NCBI GenBank assembly: GCA_036004685.1
Contig: DASYRE010000041.1
Coordinates: forward strand, 62,001 to 126,000
Length of the DNA stretch: 64,000 nucleotides
Direction of reading: 5' to 3'
Source of the DNA: Candidatus Polarisedimenticolia bacterium
GTDB lineage: Bacteria; Acidobacteriota; Polarisedimenticolia; Gp22-AA2; AA152
Below the pieces are notes generated by a model. That model worked only from the letters and a program-made list of their open reading frames with translations, had not been told where the DNA came from and searched no databases. Positions 2,349 to 33,431 of this stretch are shown piece by piece (the stretch's first letter is position 1; each line of letters starts with the position of its first letter). The position numbers were made by a program, and so were the translations under genes.

Positions 2349-4514
2349 TTGAGTCGCCGACCGTCATCCCAGACCTCCGCGCCCCCGGATCCTCGCACCC
2401 TCCTTCGCTGCCTCCTGGTTTTCGCGCTCGCCGTGGTCGCGTACTCCAACACGCTGCGCAACGGATTCGTCTTCGACGATCGAATCCTCATCCAGCGGAA
2501 TCCGCAGCTCCGCTCCGCGGAAGGGATGGGGCAGCTCTTCGTCTCGCCCTATTGGACGGGAGAAGGGCGAACGAACCGGCTCTATCGCCCGCTGACGGCT
2601 TTCTCCTTCGCACTGAACTACCGGCTGGGAGATTCCCCTTTCGGATTCCACCTGATCAACGCGCTGCTCCACGGGTGCGTCTCGGTCCTCGGGCTCCTGC
2701 TCGTGCTTCGGCTTTTCGGGCATCCCGGAATGGCGAGTCTCGCCGCGGCGCTGTTCGCGGTGCATCCGGTCCAGAGCGAGTCGGTGGCGGGGCTGGTCGG
2801 AAGGGCGGAAATCCTGTCGGCGCTTTTCGTGGTCGGCGCGCTGCTCCTGGATCGACGAGTCTCGCTTCACCGAAGCGTCACGCGCGCGGCCTCGATGCTC
2901 TTGTTCTTCCTGGCTCTTCTGTCCAAGGAAAACGCCCTAGCCTACCCGGCCCTCCTGATCGGCACGGATCTCTTGCTCGGCCGCCCCCAGGATCTTTCAG
3001 CCCGCTCGCGCCGGGGCGAATACCTGGCGGTGGCGGGAGTCGCCGCGATCTACCTGGCGCTCCGGTTGAAGGTCCTTGGGGCCCTGATGGAACCGTCGCG
3101 AATTCCCGGAGTGGACAATCTTCTGGCGCATTCGCCGGCGGGAACCCGCGTCATGACGGCGTTTTCCCTGTGCGCCCGCTATCTGGGTCTCTTCCTCTTC
3201 CCGCGACAGCTCTCCGCCGACTACTCGGCGCGCCAGATCGAGCCGGTCTCCGGTATGGGCGACCCGGCGGTCTGGCTCGGGATGCTCGTGGTGATGGGAT
3301 TTGTCCTGGTCGTCGCCGGCCTCCGGCGCCGGCTGGCCCCCCTCTCGTGGGGACTCGGATTCGCGGGCGCCTCCTTCGTGCTGGTGTCGAACCTGCTCTT
3401 CCCCATCGGGACGATCTTTGCGGAGCGGCTCCTCTATCTTCCTCTCCTGGGTCTTTGCACCGCCGCCGCCTTCCTCGCCTCGATCGCTGCCGACAAGCGG
3501 CCGCGGACGACGGCCGCGGCCGCCGCCGCGCTGCTGGTTCTCCTCGGTTCGCGAACCTGGCTGAGGAACCGGGACTGGCGCGATGACTTTTCTCTCTTCA
3601 GCGCGGCGGCGCGGGTCAGTCCGCGCAGCGCGCGGGTCCGATACAATCTCGGGAACGCCTTCCGCCGCCGGGGAAACCTGGCGGAGGCCGAGGACAACTA
3701 CCGAGCCAGCCTGGCGCAGTATCCGGGATTCGAGGCGGCGCAGAAGAATCTGGGCGTCGTCCTGATCGATCGGGGAAGGGGAGAGGAGGCCGTCGACCTT
3801 TTCCGGCAGGCGCTGGCGCGCTCCCCCGCCGATGGGTCGCTGCACAACAATCTGGGGAACGCCTATAGGAGTCTGGGGCGGAACGCCGAGGCGGAGGCGG
3901 AGTATCTCCGGGCTCTCGAGCTGAACCCCGATTTCGCCGATTCCCACAACAACCTCGGGACGATCTTCCACGAGCGGGGGGATTGGTCGCGGGCCGAATC
4001 GGAGTATCGCAACGCGACGCGTCTCGACCCGGCCCGGGACTCCTTCCGGATCAACCTCGGGAACCTCCTCCTCCAGCGGGGAGAAGCTTCACGAGCCGAA
4101 TCGGCGTTCCGCGAGACGGCGGTGAGGAACCCCTCCCTGGCGCCGGCGCGGCGGGGCCTCGGCGAGGCGCTGCTTGCGGAGGGAAGGACGGAGGAGGCCG
4201 AGCGGGAGCTTTCCCTTTCCCTGAAGCTGGATCCCGGCCAATGGGAGGCTCCGGCTCTGCTCGGGTATCTGCACCAACGCCGGGGCGATCCGGACCGCGC
4301 CATCGATTTTTATAGGAGATCTCTGGCCCGGAAACCGGATCAGGTCGAATTGCACCAGAACCTGGGGATGCTGTATGCGACACGGCCCGGATCGCGCCGG
4401 CAGGCCCTCGAACACCTGCGCCAATGCCTGGCGCTCTCCCCGCCGCCGGCCGTGGAGGCGCAGGTCAAGAAGCTCGTCGAGGAGCTGGAGAAACGGGAAG
4501 AATCGGCGCCTTGA
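2349..4514 (+). CDS. TMTC-like polytopic membrane protein with C-terminal TPR repeats
   Basis: A 721-residue protein in two halves. Residues 1-410 are multi-spanning membrane sequence with the hallmarks of TMTC/DUF1736 proteins: an early luminal/periplasmic loop with FVFDDRILI, YRPLTAFSF and HLINALLH, then HPVQSESV and GRAEILS. Residues 415-715 are about eight TPR units (repeated NLGN, A.....Y..AL, P motifs). Eukaryotic TMTCs are GT-C-fold O-mannosyltransferases. Bacterial homologues are mostly uncharacterised, so lipid-linked sugar transfer at the membrane is an inference. The start is TTG at 2349 behind GGGAGGAG (2330-2337). Its stop is only 3 bp from the stop of the convergent DsbA-like gene. 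Confidence 0.8.
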   Translation: MSRRPSSQTSAPPDPRTLLRCLLVFALAVVAYSNTLRNGFVFDDRILIQRNPQLRSAEGMGQLFVSPYWTGEGRTNRLYRPLTAFSFALNYRLGDSPFGFHLINALLHGCVSVLGLLLVLRLFGHPGMASLAAALFAVHPVQSESVAGLVGRAEILSALFVVGALLLDRRVSLHRSVTRAASMLLFFLALLSKENALAYPALLIGTDLLLGRPQDLSARSRRGEYLAVAGVAAIYLALRLKVLGALMEPSRIPGVDNLLAHSPAGTRVMTAFSLCARYLGLFLFPRQLSADYSARQIEPVSGMGDPAVWLGMLVVMGFVLVVAGLRRRLAPLSWGLGFAGASFVLVSNLLFPIGTIFAERLLYLPLLGLCTAAAFLASIAADKRPRTTAAAAAALLVLLGSRTWLRNRDWRDDFSLFSAAARVSPRSARVRYNLGNAFRRRGNLAEAEDNYRASLAQYPGFEAAQKNLGVVLIDRGRGEEAVDLFRQALARSPADGSLHNNLGNAYRSLGRNAEAEAEYLRALELNPDFADSHNNLGTIFHERGDWSRAESEYRNATRLDPARDSFRINLGNLLLQRGEASRAESAFRETAVRNPSLAPARRGLGEALLAEGRTEEAERELSLSLKLDPGQWEAPALLGYLHQRRGDPDRAIDFYRRSLARKPDQVELHQNLGMLYATRPGSRRQALEHLRQCLALSPPPAVEAQVKKLVEELEKREESAP

Positions 4515-28048: not shown

Positions 28049-28077
28049 TTGACAAGGCTCCAGGAGGCCGGTAGACT
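28049..28077 (+). promoter_or_regulatory. Sigma70 promoter for the flavin operon
   Basis: TTGACA (28049-28054), a 17-bp spacer and TAGACT (28072-28077). The start would be near 28084, immediately upstream of the palindrome at 28088-28106. Confidence 0.75.
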
Positions 28078-28087
28078 TCGCCCCCAT

Positions 28088-28106
28088 ATTGAGACTGAGT
28101 CGCAAT
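28088..28106. promoter_or_regulatory. 19-bp operator-like palindrome (possibly Fur-like)
   Basis: ATTGAGACT-G-AGTCGCAAT has 8 of 9 positions symmetric around a central G. It lies at about +5 to +23 of the flavin-operon promoter, where a bound repressor would block transcription. Its TGAGACT-N-AGTCGCA core matches the 7-1-7 Fur pattern at 9 of 14 positions, which is suggestive only; another dimeric repressor is possible. Confidence 0.5.
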
Positions 28107-28436
28107 TTCTGATCGCCGGAGCCGGCGTCCCATGGATGGAAGAAACGAAGCGCATCGGCCGTCGCTCGAAGGCGCGAAAGCTCCGTTCGGCCACGGCACG
28201 CCGGGCGATCCTCGAAGCGCACCATGGCGTTCGGCGCCGCCTGATCCGGCGCCTGAGCCGGGGGGCGGGTGGCCGTCTTCGAAGGGGTTGCGGGAGCCCG
28301 CCGGCACGGCCCCGATCGGCAGCGCCGGCGGTGTCCTCGATTTACGTACGGGACGGATCCGGCACCTCCCCGGGGAGCCCTGGCGCCGAAGACGATTCCG
28401 GCCGGCGCGCCACGTTCCGCGAGGACTTCGCCAGGG
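28107..28436 (+). other. Long untranslated leader without a recognisable gene
   Basis: About 330 bp between the operator-like palindrome and the ApbE start. Frames open here have biased, Arg/Pro/Gly-rich composition and no similarity I recognise on either strand. No terminator, known riboswitch or tRNA is evident. A CCCGG-ATTCGAT-CCGGG hairpin (about 28445-28461) sits just inside the assigned start. Confidence 0.5.
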
Positions 28437-29531
28437 ATGCGCCCCGGATTCGATCCGGGATCTTGGGCCTGTCCGTTGAGGGGGACCGCTGCCGCGGCGC
28501 TGGTCGCGCTCCTGACTTCGTGGGCGATCGCCGGAGCGTCACCTCCGAAAAAACCTCCCTCTTCCCTAGTGCGGGCACGGTTCCTGATGGGAACCGTTTT
28601 CCGGTTCGAAGCGTCTGAGGGAATCCCGGCCGCAGCGCGCGCGGCAGCGCTCGAGTCGGCGCTGGACGAAGTGGATCGCCTCGAGCGGATTCTGAGCAAT
28701 TGGCGGAGCGAGAGCGAGCTCTCGCGCCTGAATCGAAGCGCGCGGCGAAGGGCGACGCGCGTCTCGGCCGATCTCTTCGAAGCGGTCGAGCGCGCCTTGT
28801 ACTGGGCGCGCGAAACCGAGGGGGCCTTCGATCCCACGGTCGAGCCTCTGACGCGCCGATTCAGACACACGCCTTCCCAGGGGAGCCCGGCCTCTTCGGC
28901 CGACTGGCGCGCGGGGCACGGGAATTGGCGAGACGTCTCGCTGAACCGGCGCTCCCGCACGATTCGCTTTCGCCGCGGCGTCCAGGGATTGGACCTGGGA
29001 GGGATCGCCAAGGGATTCGCTCTGGATCGGGCGGCGGCGGTTCTTCGCCGGCAGGGGATGAATGCCTTCTTGCTGGACGCCGGAGGTCAGGTCCTGGCGG
29101 CGGGCGCGCCGGCGGGGATGCGGGGATGGCCCGTGGCGGTGGCCGATCCCGCGCGCCGGGACAGGCCATTCCTGCCGCTGCTGGTGACCGATGTCTCCGC
29201 CGCCACTTCCGGCAATGCGGAGAGGCCGGGGGAGATCGTCGATCCGGTCACGGGCGCGACGCTTCGCTGGAAGGGAAGCGCGACCGCGGTGGCGCCCGAC
29301 GCGACTTCCGCCGACGCTCTATCCACCGCCCTCTTCGTCCTGGGATCGGAGCGAGGAACGCGGTGGGCCCGGCGACGCCACGACGTGGCGGCGGTTTTCT
29401 TGGATCCGGGAGATCGCGGACCAACGAGGATTTCCGGGACCGTGTCGGAGACGGAGGCCCGGAACCGGCCGATCGAGTTCTTCTCAACGACCGATCACCA
29501 GGGGAGGATCCGGCATGTTTCGTTCCGGTAG
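28437..29531 (+). CDS. apbE: ApbE-family FAD:protein FMN transferase
   Basis: A 364-residue exported enzyme that attaches FMN covalently to Ser/Thr of FMN-binding domains. It has the ApbE features RFLMGTVFRFE, LERILSNWRSESELSRLN, DLGGIAKGFALDRAA, FLLDAGGQVLAAG, ATSGNAERPGEIVDP and TSADALSTALFVLG. A signal peptide (LVALLTSWAIAGA) precedes it. The start is uncertain: ATG at 28437 has GAGGA at 11 bp; TTG at 28476 would give a more classical signal peptide but has no ribosome site. Its likely substrate is the FMN-binding protein two genes downstream. It overlaps the porin gene by 17 bp. Confidence 0.87.
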   Translation: MRPGFDPGSWACPLRGTAAAALVALLTSWAIAGASPPKKPPSSLVRARFLMGTVFRFEASEGIPAAARAAALESALDEVDRLERILSNWRSESELSRLNRSARRRATRVSADLFEAVERALYWARETEGAFDPTVEPLTRRFRHTPSQGSPASSADWRAGHGNWRDVSLNRRSRTIRFRRGVQGLDLGGIAKGFALDRAAAVLRRQGMNAFLLDAGGQVLAAGAPAGMRGWPVAVADPARRDRPFLPLLVTDVSAATSGNAERPGEIVDPVTGATLRWKGSATAVAPDATSADALSTALFVLGSERGTRWARRRHDVAAVFLDPGDRGPTRISGTVSETEARNRPIEFFSTTDHQGRIRHVSFR

Positions 29532-30933
29532 GTTTCTTGGCATCGCCTTCGCGCTGCTTGGACTCATCCTGAATCCGGGGGGAGCCTTGTGGGCCGAATC
29601 GCCCGCTCCGCCGGTCTCCTCTTCCGGCGATCTGGAGACTAGGATTCGCGACTTGGAGGCGCAGGTCAAGAAACTGGCGGCGGCGGTGGAGGCTTTGCGG
29701 AGCGAAGCGCCGCCCGGAAAGCCGGACGGCATCGCGGAGCTGGAACGGCAGATCGATGTGTTGACCCGCGAGATCGAGCGCTTGCGGCTCGGCGAGGCGG
29801 CGGGGACCGAGGCCGGGGAATCGAGACACGGATTCGGGCCCGCCGCCTCGAAGATCTATCAGGTCCGTCACGGCGTCTCGGTCGGAGGCTATGGAGAGCT
29901 GGCGTATCGGAACTTCCGGAATGAGACGGACGATGGGTCGCCCGCGGGGGTAAACGATACCCTGGACCTCTCTCGAGTGGTGCTCTATTTCGGCTACAAA
30001 TGGACCGATCGGTTTCTCTTCAATTCCGAGATCGAATTCGAGCACGCGACCACCGGAGAAGGGGACGAGGAGAAGGGAGAAGTCTCCGTGGAATTCGCCT
30101 ACCTCGACTTTCTGCTCCGCAAGGGATTGAACGCACGGGCCGGGCTCCTCCTGGTGCCCGTCGGATTCATCAACGAGCTTCACGAGCCGACCGCTTTCCA
30201 CGGCGTCCTTCGCCCCGAGGTGGAACGGGTCGTAATTCCCTCCACCTGGAGGGAGGCGGGGGCCGGAGTATTCGGGGAGGCCGGAAAGTTCACCTACCGT
30301 GCCTACCTCATGACGGGATTGAACGGACTCGGCTTCTCGGGCGACGAGGGGCTGCGCGAAGGAAGACAGGGAGGATCCTCTGCCGCGGCCGAGGATTTCG
30401 CCCTGGCGGGCCGCCTCGATTTCACCGGCTTTGCCTCGTTTCTCGCCGGCGTCTCCGGCTACGCCGGAGACTCGTCGCAAGGCGCGGTTTCGGCGGGAGC
30501 GCGCGTGACCCTGGCCGACGCTCACGTCCAGTATCAGTGGAGGGGGCTCGAGCTCCGCGCCCTCTGGACGCAGGTCGCCATCCACGATGCCGACGACCTG
30601 AACGCCGCCTTGGGAATCCTTCCGGGCTCGAACGAAACGATCGGGGAGAAGCTCCGCGGGTGGTACGCTCAGGCCGCCTGGGATATTCTCTCCCTACGAG
30701 CTGCGTCGTCCGTTTCGCTGATCCCGTTCGTCCGCTACGAGTCCTTGGATACCCAGGCGCGCGTGCCCGCCGGATTCTCGGCGGATCCGGGGAACGACCG
30801 GAGGATTCTGACCATGGGCCTTTCCTGGAAGCCGATCGCGCAGATCGTGGTGAAGGCCGACTATCAGAACGCCTCGAACGACGCCGGCACGGGTCTCGAT
30901 GAATTCAATCTCGGCTTGGGGTGGATATTCTGA
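29515..30933 (+). CDS. Outer-membrane porin with N-terminal coiled coil
   Basis: A 472-residue exported protein. It has a signal peptide (1-27), a periplasmic coiled coil (about 36-105, LETRIRDLEAQVKKLAAAVEALR then a second heptad block), and from about residue 115 a beta-barrel with alternating aromatic strands (VGGYGELAYRNFRN, VVLYFGYKWTDRFLFNSEIEFEH) ending in a C-terminal Phe (LGLGWIF), the usual BamA signal. The architecture resembles OprO/OprP-like or carbohydrate-selective porins. It sits between ApbE and the FMN-binding protein, so it may admit the electron acceptor or donor for that module. The start is ATG at 29515 with GGGGAGGA upstream, inside the end of apbE. Confidence 0.82.
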   Translation: MFRSGRFLGIAFALLGLILNPGGALWAESPAPPVSSSGDLETRIRDLEAQVKKLAAAVEALRSEAPPGKPDGIAELERQIDVLTREIERLRLGEAAGTEAGESRHGFGPAASKIYQVRHGVSVGGYGELAYRNFRNETDDGSPAGVNDTLDLSRVVLYFGYKWTDRFLFNSEIEFEHATTGEGDEEKGEVSVEFAYLDFLLRKGLNARAGLLLVPVGFINELHEPTAFHGVLRPEVERVVIPSTWREAGAGVFGEAGKFTYRAYLMTGLNGLGFSGDEGLREGRQGGSSAAAEDFALAGRLDFTGFASFLAGVSGYAGDSSQGAVSAGARVTLADAHVQYQWRGLELRALWTQVAIHDADDLNAALGILPGSNETIGEKLRGWYAQAAWDILSLRAASSVSLIPFVRYESLDTQARVPAGFSADPGNDRRILTMGLSWKPIAQIVVKADYQNASNDAGTGLDEFNLGLGWIF

Positions 30934-30934
30934 A

Positions 30935-31486
30935 ATGTCCCGATCGACGCGCTTGCTTGCCGCGCTGGCGACCCTGCTTCACCTCCTGGCGGCGGATTCC
31001 GCCGCGGGCAAGGTCTATCTCACCCAGACGGAGGCGCTCGCGACGGCGTTTCCCGCTCCTGCCAAGAGCGAGCGGCGGAGCCTGTTCCTGGATGACGCCC
31101 AGGCGGCCCGCGTGGAGCGGGAATCGGGGCAGAAACTCGCTTCCCGGCTGGTCATCTATTATGTCGGGACGGCGGCAGGCGGAGCCGCCGGCTACGCTTA
31201 TTTCGACACGCACCTGGTGCGGACGCTTCCGGAGACGATCATGGTCCTGGTGAAGCCCGACGGGGCCGTCGGGAAGATCCTGGTGCTCTCGTTCGCGGAG
31301 CCGGAGGACTATCTGCCCCGCGGCGCCTGGCTCGGGCAGTTTCCGGGGCGGAGCCTCGACCCCGACCTGGCGCTCCGGCGAGGCCTACGCAACCTGACCG
31401 GAGCCTCCCTCACCGCCGAGGCGATCACCGCGGCGTGCCGCCGAATTCTCGCGATTCACCGGATCGTCCGGGCCGGGCCTCCATGA
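30935..31486 (+). CDS. Exported FMN-binding-domain protein (covalent flavinylation target)
   Basis: A 183-residue protein with a signal peptide (1-24) and one FMN-bind domain like RnfG/NqrC. The flavinylation motif reads NLTGASLTAEAI (residues 153-164), with Ser158 as the likely FMN-bearing residue in place of the more common Thr. Upstream features fit the family: YYVGTAAGGAAGYAYFDTHLV and the redox-domain strand IMVLVKPDGAVGKILVLSFAEPEDYL. It starts 2 bp after the porin stop and its stop overlaps the next start (ATGA). It is predicted to carry electrons in the periplasm, loaded by the ApbE of this operon. Confidence 0.88.
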   Translation: MSRSTRLLAALATLLHLLAADSAAGKVYLTQTEALATAFPAPAKSERRSLFLDDAQAARVERESGQKLASRLVIYYVGTAAGGAAGYAYFDTHLVRTLPETIMVLVKPDGAVGKILVLSFAEPEDYLPRGAWLGQFPGRSLDPDLALRRGLRNLTGASLTAEAITAACRRILAIHRIVRAGPP

Positions 31487-31992
31487 TCCGTCGGGGCGAG
31501 AAGATCCTTCTGTGGCTTTCGACGGTTCTGACGGCCGGATCGGGTGCGCTGTATGCCTGGATGAAGTACCTGATGAAGCCGGAGGACCCGCTGTCCGTCG
31601 TGAACCATCCATGGCAGCCCGGTCTGCTGGCCGCTCACGTCCTCGCGGCGCCTCTGCTGCTCTTCGGGATCGGGCTGATTACCCGCGAGCATATCCTCGG
31701 CCGATTTCATGATCCGCGCGCCAGAAAGAGGCGCTTGAGCGGAACGATGGTCGCCCTGGCGGCGGCGCCCATGGTCGCTTCGGGCTATCTCCTCCAAGTT
31801 CTCACTGCGGCGCCGGCACGCCGGACGGCCGGCCTGATCCACCTGGCGCTGGGGGCCGCATTCGTGACGGCCTATTCCCTGCACGCGGCGCTCGGCCGGC
31901 GCGCCGAGAAGGTCTCAACCCCGAAACCTGCCGGGTCGCTGCCGGGCCCCTCCCGGACCCGGCGCCGGCGGGTCTCGGCGGGTCCGAATTGA
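31483..31992 (+). CDS. Four-helix membrane protein with conserved-position histidines (cytochrome b-like)
   Basis: A 169-residue inner-membrane protein with four predicted helices (about 8-27, 46-67, 87-108, 114-136). His42, His52, His70, His120 and His134 lie in or next to helices 2 and 4, a pattern expected for b-type haem ligation as in DUF4405-like quinol/flavin-linked proteins. It is translationally coupled to the FMN-binding protein and is the last gene of the operon. The inferred role is to pass electrons from the membrane to the flavoprotein. No similarity is certain beyond topology. The C-terminal about 30 residues are basic and Pro-rich, probably cytoplasmic. Confidence 0.72.
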   Translation: MIRRGEKILLWLSTVLTAGSGALYAWMKYLMKPEDPLSVVNHPWQPGLLAAHVLAAPLLLFGIGLITREHILGRFHDPRARKRRLSGTMVALAAAPMVASGYLLQVLTAAPARRTAGLIHLALGAAFVTAYSLHAALGRRAEKVSTPKPAGSLPGPSRTRRRRVSAGPN

Positions 31993-32017
31993 ACCCCCAC
32001 CGGCTTGTCCCTATAAT
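31989..32017 (+). promoter_or_regulatory. Sigma70 promoter for the secreted TPR gene
   Basis: TTGAAC (31989-31994), a 17-bp spacer and a perfect TATAAT (32012-32017). The -35 overlaps the stop of the preceding gene. Start near 32024. Confidence 0.8.
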
Positions 32018-32060
32018 TGAGTGCAATCGCGGGAATTCCAGAGGGCCAGGGAGGAAAGCC

Positions 32061-33431
32061 ATGAATCATCGCATCAAGCGGATCACGCGCGTGTTGGCGG
32101 CTGCGGCCTGCCTGTCCGGAGCCGTATCTTGGTGGGCGGCCCCGGCGAGGGCGGAAAGCACCACGAAGGTCAGCGGCACGATTGTGGACGACAAGGGAGA
32201 ACCCTTGGAAAAAGTCGACGTGTGGTTCGAGAACGTCACCATCAAGGAGAAAAAGGTCGGCCCGGTCAAGACGAACAAGAAGGGAAGATACATCCATCCT
32301 CACCTGGACGTGGGGATCGAGCCGAATTGGAGGGTGGTTCCGAAGCTCCCGGGCTACATGGTCTTGAAAGTCTCGTACAAGCTCGTCGACTCGCAGCGCA
32401 ACGATCGCGGCAGCAGCGAATCGATTCTCAACTCGAAGCAGGAGTTCCCGTCGATCCACCCCGTCCTGGTGGGAGACTCCGGCTTCAACACCGTCGACTT
32501 CGTGATGGTGAAGGAAGCGGATTTTCAGAATGCGATGCGCGCGGCGGTGGCCAAGAAGCAAGGGGGCAGCTCGAGCGGCGCGGCCGCCCCTCCGGCGGGC
32601 GCGGCGTCGCCGGCGCCGGCCGCCGGAGCCGCCGCTCCCGGCGAAGCCGCCGCTCCCCCGGCGGCTCCCATCAAGAACGTGAGCGATGCGATCGCCCTGA
32701 TCACCGCCGGCAAGAACGAGGAGGCCATTCCCATCCTCAAGGACTACCTCGAGAAGAATCCGAACAACGCGCCGGTCCAATTCGCGCTGGGCAAGGCCTA
32801 CATCTCCACGAAACAGTACGACGAAGCGGTGCCGGCCCTCACGAAGACGTTGGCCATCAAGCCGGACCAGGGGGGCGCTCACTTCTACCTCGGCATCGCG
32901 CACGCGCAGATGGGACGGGACGAGGAGGCGATCAAGGAGTTCCAGGCGGAGATCCCGATCAGCCCGGATCAGGATTCGACCTACTCCAACCTGGCCTCGA
33001 TCTACGAGAAGCAGGGGAAGCTGGACGACGCCCTGGAGAACTACAAGAAGGCGGCGGAGATCAACCCCAAGCGGCCGGAGATTCACGCCAGCATGGCGGC
33101 CATCTATGAAAAGAAGGGGAATCAGGCGCTGGCGGAGGCGGAGTACAAGGCGCTGGCCGATGTCGATCCGGCGAACGCCTCGGTCACCTGGTACAACATC
33201 GGCGCGATTGCCAAGAACAACGACAAGAATCCCGACGCCGTCCGGGCGTTCAAGAAGGCGGTGGAGCTCGATCCGAAATACGCCCAGGCGCATCGAGAGC
33301 TGGGCTACGCGCTGGTCCAGCAGGGAGATTTCAACGGAGCGGTGGAGCACTTCAAGAAATATATCGAGCTGGCGCCGAGCGCTCCGGACGCGGGACAGAT
33401 CAAGTCCATGGTTCAACAGCTGTCGCGCTGA
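32061..33431 (+). CDS. Exported protein with carboxypeptidase-regulatory-like domain and TPR repeats
   Basis: A 456-residue exported protein. A signal peptide (1-31, ending APARAE) is followed by a CarboxypepD-reg-like beta domain (about 35-150: KVSGTIVDDKGEPLEKVDVWFEN), a low-complexity Ala/Pro linker (about 172-212) and six TPR units (about 213-450; LGKAYISTKQYDEAVPAL, NLASIYEKQGKLDDALENYKKA). The start is ATG at 32061 behind AGGGAGGAAAG. It is probably periplasmic and may organise envelope complexes; the function is unknown. Similar fusions are common in Acidobacteriota-type genomes, which is my recollection and not shown here. Confidence 0.82.
   Translation: MNHRIKRITRVLAAAACLSGAVSWWAAPARAESTTKVSGTIVDDKGEPLEKVDVWFENVTIKEKKVGPVKTNKKGRYIHPHLDVGIEPNWRVVPKLPGYMVLKVSYKLVDSQRNDRGSSESILNSKQEFPSIHPVLVGDSGFNTVDFVMVKEADFQNAMRAAVAKKQGGSSSGAAAPPAGAASPAPAAGAAAPGEAAAPPAAPIKNVSDAIALITAGKNEEAIPILKDYLEKNPNNAPVQFALGKAYISTKQYDEAVPALTKTLAIKPDQGGAHFYLGIAHAQMGRDEEAIKEFQAEIPISPDQDSTYSNLASIYEKQGKLDDALENYKKAAEINPKRPEIHASMAAIYEKKGNQALAEAEYKALADVDPANASVTWYNIGAIAKNNDKNPDAVRAFKKAVELDPKYAQAHRELGYALVQQGDFNGAVEHFKKYIELAPSAPDAGQIKSMVQQLSR

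Follow-up and report, generated by a model that had tools for sequence, protein, structure and literature searches.

The window, i.e. the whole stretch of 64,000 nucleotides that was analysed, carries an operon of four genes preceded by a promoter and an operator-like palindrome. The following features were recognized:

28049-28077, + strand: sigma-70-type promoter TTGACA-N17-TAGACT (10/12 consensus)
28088-28106, strand-neutral: Fur-box-type operator ATTGAGACTGAGTCGCAAT (footprint across the operon loci and a site before the sole fur gene)
28136-28216, + strand: possible fur remnant, first 27 codons (frame-tolerant score; suggestive only)
28437-29531 (alternative TTG start at 28476), + strand: apbE, exported FAD:protein FMN transferase (PF02424, E 4e-58)
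29515-30933, + strand: porin, 16-stranded barrel with N-terminal helices (predicted coiled coil) (AlphaFold2, Foldseek, Porin_O_P matches in the family)
30935-31486, + strand: exported FMN_bind protein with putative flavinylation site Ser158 (TGAS) (family matches to PF04205 and RnfG)
31483-31992, + strand: four-helix membrane protein (4TM), candidate di-haem cytochrome b (alignment, AlphaFold2, weak PF01292 matches)

The apbE and porin genes overlap by 17 nt, a gap of 1 nt separates the porin and FMN_bind genes, and the latter overlaps the 4TM gene by 4 nt. This set of genes, with the same order and overlaps, had been proposed in a preliminary description of the locus and was re-found in full, and the promoter, which had been called near-consensus, merits that term. 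The 19-bp palindrome reported downstream of it is present, but not perfect, as its arms (ATTGAGACT and AGTCGCAAT) pair at 8 of 9 positions. Since translation of apbE starts either at ATG 28437 or at TTG 28476, a leader of 330-370 nt lies between the palindrome and the gene. In relatives this interval is shorter or is occupied by a fur gene, and in three genomes of the same family a second fur lies directly between the palindrome and apbE, where the window has its 330-nt leader. The leader may hold an N-terminal remnant of a fur gene, which is suggestive only: the segment 28136-28216 scored 40.7, compared with 26.8 +/- 3.6 in shuffles (0/120 reached it), and its score was tied by 1 of 80 random window segments. 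Two other interpretations of the leader were rejected: (i) a riboswitch or other known RNA, with no Rfam match anywhere in the window, and (ii) a genuine gene, with no Pfam match for the leader ORF, which was taken instead as the weakly supported fur remnant. Directly 3' of the operon lies a gene for a predicted secreted TPR protein (31989-33431) with its own promoter-like site (31989-32017), and several related loci keep this gene next to the operon.

The conservation of the operon was assessed at 64 loci with a relative of the FMN_bind gene (the window and one duplicate were excluded). Such a relative is present in 46 of 120 related genomes, and the 4TM protein in 104 of 396 genomes of the phylum, which the named loci indicate to be Acidobacteriota; most of the loci belong there. 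Co-conservation had been set beforehand as the point on which the description could fail, and it held: the 4TM gene was found at 60 loci and the porin gene at 59, both accompanied the FMN_bind gene at 56, and at 49 of these apbE was also present. Twelve of the 64 loci, some of them truncated by contig ends, have no apbE in the cluster, yet all ten genomes of this kind that were checked carry ApbE elsewhere, which argues against a requirement for apbE within the cluster itself.

The product of apbE is the only ApbE of the window's genome. The window FMN_bind protein is divergent and alone gave no Pfam match; 43 of the 44 members of its family matched PF04205 (E<=1, best 2e-8) and the family profile matched RnfG (E 1.2e-11). 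The TGAS motif with Ser158 had been correctly placed, as the flavin acceptor column is occupied by Ser or Thr in all 44 members (T in 36, S in 8), preceded by G156 (44/44) and A157 (43/44), in agreement with an [ST]GA[ST]-type flavinylation motif. The operon's own ApbE would be the enzyme that attaches FMN to Ser158.

The AlphaFold2 model of the 4TM protein (pLDDT 90) consists of four helices. Histidines H52 and H70 are located near opposite ends of helix 2, and H120 and H134 in helix 4, as had been noted for these two helices before; all four are invariant in the 37 aligned sequences. Thirteen of the 37 members also showed weak matches to cytochrome b561 (PF01292), and on the basis of the invariant histidines and this weak similarity the protein is a candidate di-haem cytochrome b, which would hold two b haems between helices 2 and 4. 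A structure search with the model returned nothing significant (the best hits were cytochrome b6 and HyaC, E 0.4-0.8), and neither the 4TM nor the porin family gave an informative match to the sequences of solved structures. DUF4405 and FezC, which are flavinylation or ferrosome cytochromes, are likewise small, membrane-bound and linked to flavinylation and iron, and their haem histidines are conserved (PMC11334425). An assignment of 4TM to DUF4405 was rejected: that family has six helices, not four, and the Pfam similarity is weak (PF14358 weakly matched in 6/37 members, best 0.041).

The porin model (pLDDT 86.9) comprises 16 strands and N-terminal helices, and Foldseek matched it to OmpM1 (7e-13) and the phosphate-selective porin OprP (1.4e-12). 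OmpM1 and the OprO/OprP porins share the 16-strand fold. Similarity in sequence to Porin_O_P (PF07396) is weak, this profile being matched by 15 of 39 porin members, and by the window protein only with E 0.05. Five residues (E172, E174, E176, E193 and H223) are invariant. The first three alternate along one strand, and their side chains should therefore face one side, presumably the pore; where OprP has an arginine ladder, the porin described here has invariant E172, E174, E176 and E193, and these glutamates could favour cations. One might suppose that this is an unrelated nutrient porin that sits in the operon by chance, and its fold does resemble that of ordinary 16-stranded porins. We consider this very improbable, since the porin accompanies the FMN_bind gene at all but five of the 64 loci, has no close paralogue in the window's genome and is kept in proteobacterial copies. 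Moreover, where the porin is missing from FMN_bind/ApbE/4TM sets, another predicted outer-membrane barrel can fill the slot before the FMN_bind gene, as at loci L134, L135 and L147. These replacement barrels are encoded at L134:7870-8835 (DUF6662 by Pfam), L135:5573-6469 and L147:4831-5919 and are similar by eye; such replacement suggests that an outer-membrane partner belongs to the function of the module.

Regulation by iron had been offered as a possibility only, and it is now supported from several sides. A 400-bp stretch upstream of the operon was scored in 40 copies: the operator core TTGAGACTGAGTCGCAA was found with at most 2 mismatches to a degenerate pattern before 25 copies (0.02 expected from Markov shuffles), and with at most 3 mismatches before 30 copies (0.7 expected); the pattern was drawn after some of the sites had been seen, which makes the exact ratios of observed to expected optimistic. 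The 17 operator bases of the window recur exactly or nearly so in distant families. The promoter recurs as well, in the form TTGACA-N17/18-TAGAGT or TAGACT, at L003, L040-L046 and other loci, and its spacing to the box is kept, the palindrome beginning 11-12 bp after the -10 element. At L071 and L121 the operator reads TTGAGAATGATTCTCAA, which we take to be a match to the classical Fur box. Within the window's genome (3.84 Mb), the closest further operator-like site, TTGAGAATGATTCGCAA, immediately precedes the single gene of the Fur family, which heads an FTR1 iron-permease cluster. The palindrome at the promoter is thus of the Fur type, conserved, and common to other iron genes of the same genome. 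Two tandem Fur-type boxes (3748-3764 and 3813-3829, about 65 bp apart) precede the fur-apbE operon of L038. Two weaker palindrome-like sites with 2-3 mismatches occur in the window's genome at L084:1211-1227 and in L085 (contig C51), of which the one on contig C34 has no obvious iron gene adjoining it.

In the cluster headed by the single fur gene (L083:7864-12924, contig C19), Fur is followed by an FTR1 permease that carries a fused FtrD-like domain, by a pair of FtsX permeases and by an ABC ATPase; a DtxR-type metal-binding dimerisation domain at its C-terminus makes the latter an unusual fusion protein. Direct adjacency of fur and FTR1 recurs in six more genomes belonging to the same family and order. 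A Fur-family gene also adjoins the module itself at 19 of the 64 loci, and most of the linked Fur sequences show, by eye, the HHDH-type motif of iron-sensing Fur. Taken together, the operator footprint, the box before the sole fur, the adjoining fur genes and the iron permeases found in clusters of relatives make control of the operon by the iron sensor Fur well supported at the level of sequence.

These permeases are of two unrelated kinds. FeoB is encoded in the same cluster as the module at four loci (L055, L116, L132 and L133), where fur and FeoB lie upstream of apbE-porin-FMN_bind-4TM, in some cases with a DtxR-FeoA fusion. FTR1 is encoded in the cluster at three loci: (i) L056, with the order fur-FTR1-apbE-porin-FMN_bind-4TM, (ii) L131, where a divergent fur and FTR1 lie just upstream and a Fur-type box precedes each transcription unit, and (iii) L134, where FTR1 directly follows the 4TM gene. 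The presence of two unrelated iron permeases beside one reductase-like module is the strongest hint as to its probable function. The DtxR-type domain fused to FeoA beside FeoB is encoded at L055:9324-10022 and L132:9941-10795, and in these extended clusters two kinds of iron regulator may be acting.

A respiratory (dissimilatory) role, in which external acceptors such as Fe(III) or quinones would receive the electrons of the chain for energy gain while Fur control would reflect mere iron sensing, has to be weighed against these data. Flavinylated proteins do serve respiration in other systems (PMC8238504), and the module occurs widely in the phylum, as the count for 4TM given above shows. The Fur-type operator, the adjoining fur genes and the FeoB or FTR1 genes in the clusters point instead to assimilation, and shut-off at iron sufficiency is not what one would expect of a respiratory system, so that we regard this role as improbable.

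We favour, with a probability of about 0.72, a role of the operon in iron assimilation under starvation: ferric iron would enter through an outer-membrane portal of the operon's own, would be reduced in the periplasm by extracytosolic electron transfer based on flavinylation, and would then be passed on to FTR1 or FeoB. With ample iron, the sole Fur, encoded before the FTR1 cluster, would occupy the palindrome a short way 3' of the -10 element and block transcription, and iron shortage would lead to expression. The porin would then let in ferric iron or small ferric chelates, ApbE would attach FMN to Ser158, and the 4TM protein, in which helices 2 and 4 would hold a stack of two b haems, would conduct electrons from the quinone pool or the cytoplasm to the flavoprotein. 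The latter would reduce Fe(III), and the resulting Fe(II) would be taken up by the inner-membrane permease, which is FTR1 in this genome and FeoB in some relatives. The window's genome gave no convincing match to FeoB (weak GTPase-domain matches only), which makes FTR1 the likely client of the operon. FTR1 is not part of the window's own operon; it is encoded in the separate cluster with a like operator. That cluster, as far as it was read, contains neither the thioredoxin nor the FMN protein known from its relatives, and no P19 protein was found in the genome, whereas the operon, whose operator is alike, encodes an FMN protein together with ApbE, the candidate cytochrome and the porin. The two would most simply form a single pathway, with entry through the porin, reduction by the flavoprotein via 4TM and uptake by FTR1. 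Some observations weigh against assimilatory ferric reduction as proposed here. Co-occurrence of FTR1 with the operon across the 120 genomes is modest (21/46 genomes with the operon vs 17/74 without it, Fisher p 0.015 with kinship ignored), and about four strong matches to TonB receptor plugs in the window's genome mean that the porin is not the sole possible iron route. A bolder version, in which the porin and the flavinylated protein dock as a conduit and ferric iron is reduced at or inside the glutamate-lined pore, not after free diffusion into the periplasm, seems to us doubtful; if true, this porin-flavoprotein conduit would be the flavin-based equivalent of MtrAB and other porin-cytochrome conduits.

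Several known systems resemble parts of this arrangement. The FTR1/P19 systems (Campylobacter jejuni 1649-1656 and Bifidobacterium bfeUO-sifABCDE) likewise contain FTR1, FtsX permeases and an ABC ATPase (PMC6083913, PMC5449479), and that of Campylobacter is under Fur-box control, as proposed here (PMC6083913). The reductant of ferric iron was proposed to be a thioredoxin in Campylobacter and an FMN-binding protein in other phyla, and the route or receptor at the outer membrane was left unidentified (PMC6083913). The locus described here differs in that it has no P19 and that the reductant genes form a separate operon with ApbE, the candidate cytochrome and the porin. The module is a testable candidate for both gaps, outer-membrane entry of ferric iron and its reduction. 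Fur-regulated PepSY-like/DUF2271 clusters (Caulobacter CC_3060-3063, Shewanella) also combine ApbE, a flavinylated periplasmic protein and a membrane electron carrier (PMC8238504, PMC3751524), but here the flavoprotein is of the FMN_bind type, the membrane protein is different and a porin is present, while some PepSY clusters have a TonB receptor. Periplasmic ferric reduction followed by ferrous uptake has been described for Bradyrhizobium FsrB and FeoAB, as is proposed here, but with no ApbE, FMN_bind or porin module, and the reductase for inorganic iron was stated to be unknown (PMC10760861). A porin inside a flavinylation operon had been thought to be undescribed, and no such description was found in the full-text literature searched, in which subscription journals are thinly covered and priority is accordingly not certain; the word porin does not occur in either large survey of flavinylation (PMC8238504, PMC11334425). 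A gene set of this kind with a dedicated pore thus seems not to have been described previously. With it, the known flavinylation systems would be extended by a porin and by a new candidate cytochrome with four helices, in a soil phylum with little-studied iron uptake.

Beyond the Acidobacteriota, the spread of the module was read from the contig scan and from plasmids. Relatives were found in Planctomycetota, Myxococcota and Proteobacteria, including a Planctomycetota and a Myxococcaceae MAG. Diverged copies with the order porin-FMN_bind-ApbE-4TM are present on plasmids of Ideonella, Bradyrhizobium and Methylocystis (L143, L144 and L145), and these keep, by eye, the four histidines and the ExExEH strand. 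The Ideonella copy lies beside a cytochrome c peroxidase gene and the Methylocystis copy near copper oxidases, and contexts such as the latter count against the iron reading for some proteobacterial copies. Both neighbourhoods would fit an iron-sparing replacement, in which the flavoprotein takes over a periplasmic redox task (e.g. delivery of electrons to a peroxidase, copper enzyme or reductase) from iron carriers without handling iron, for which the exchange of ferredoxin for flavodoxin is a precedent (discussed in PMC8238504). Against this stand the module's own contents, among them a porin and a presumed haem protein, and the iron permeases as its most informative neighbours, so that we regard an iron-sparing role as unlikely and prefer assimilatory ferric reduction. 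The plasmid-borne gene sets suggest spread by plasmids and, perhaps, use with other metals. The Bradyrhizobium plasmid that carries the gene set is conjugative.
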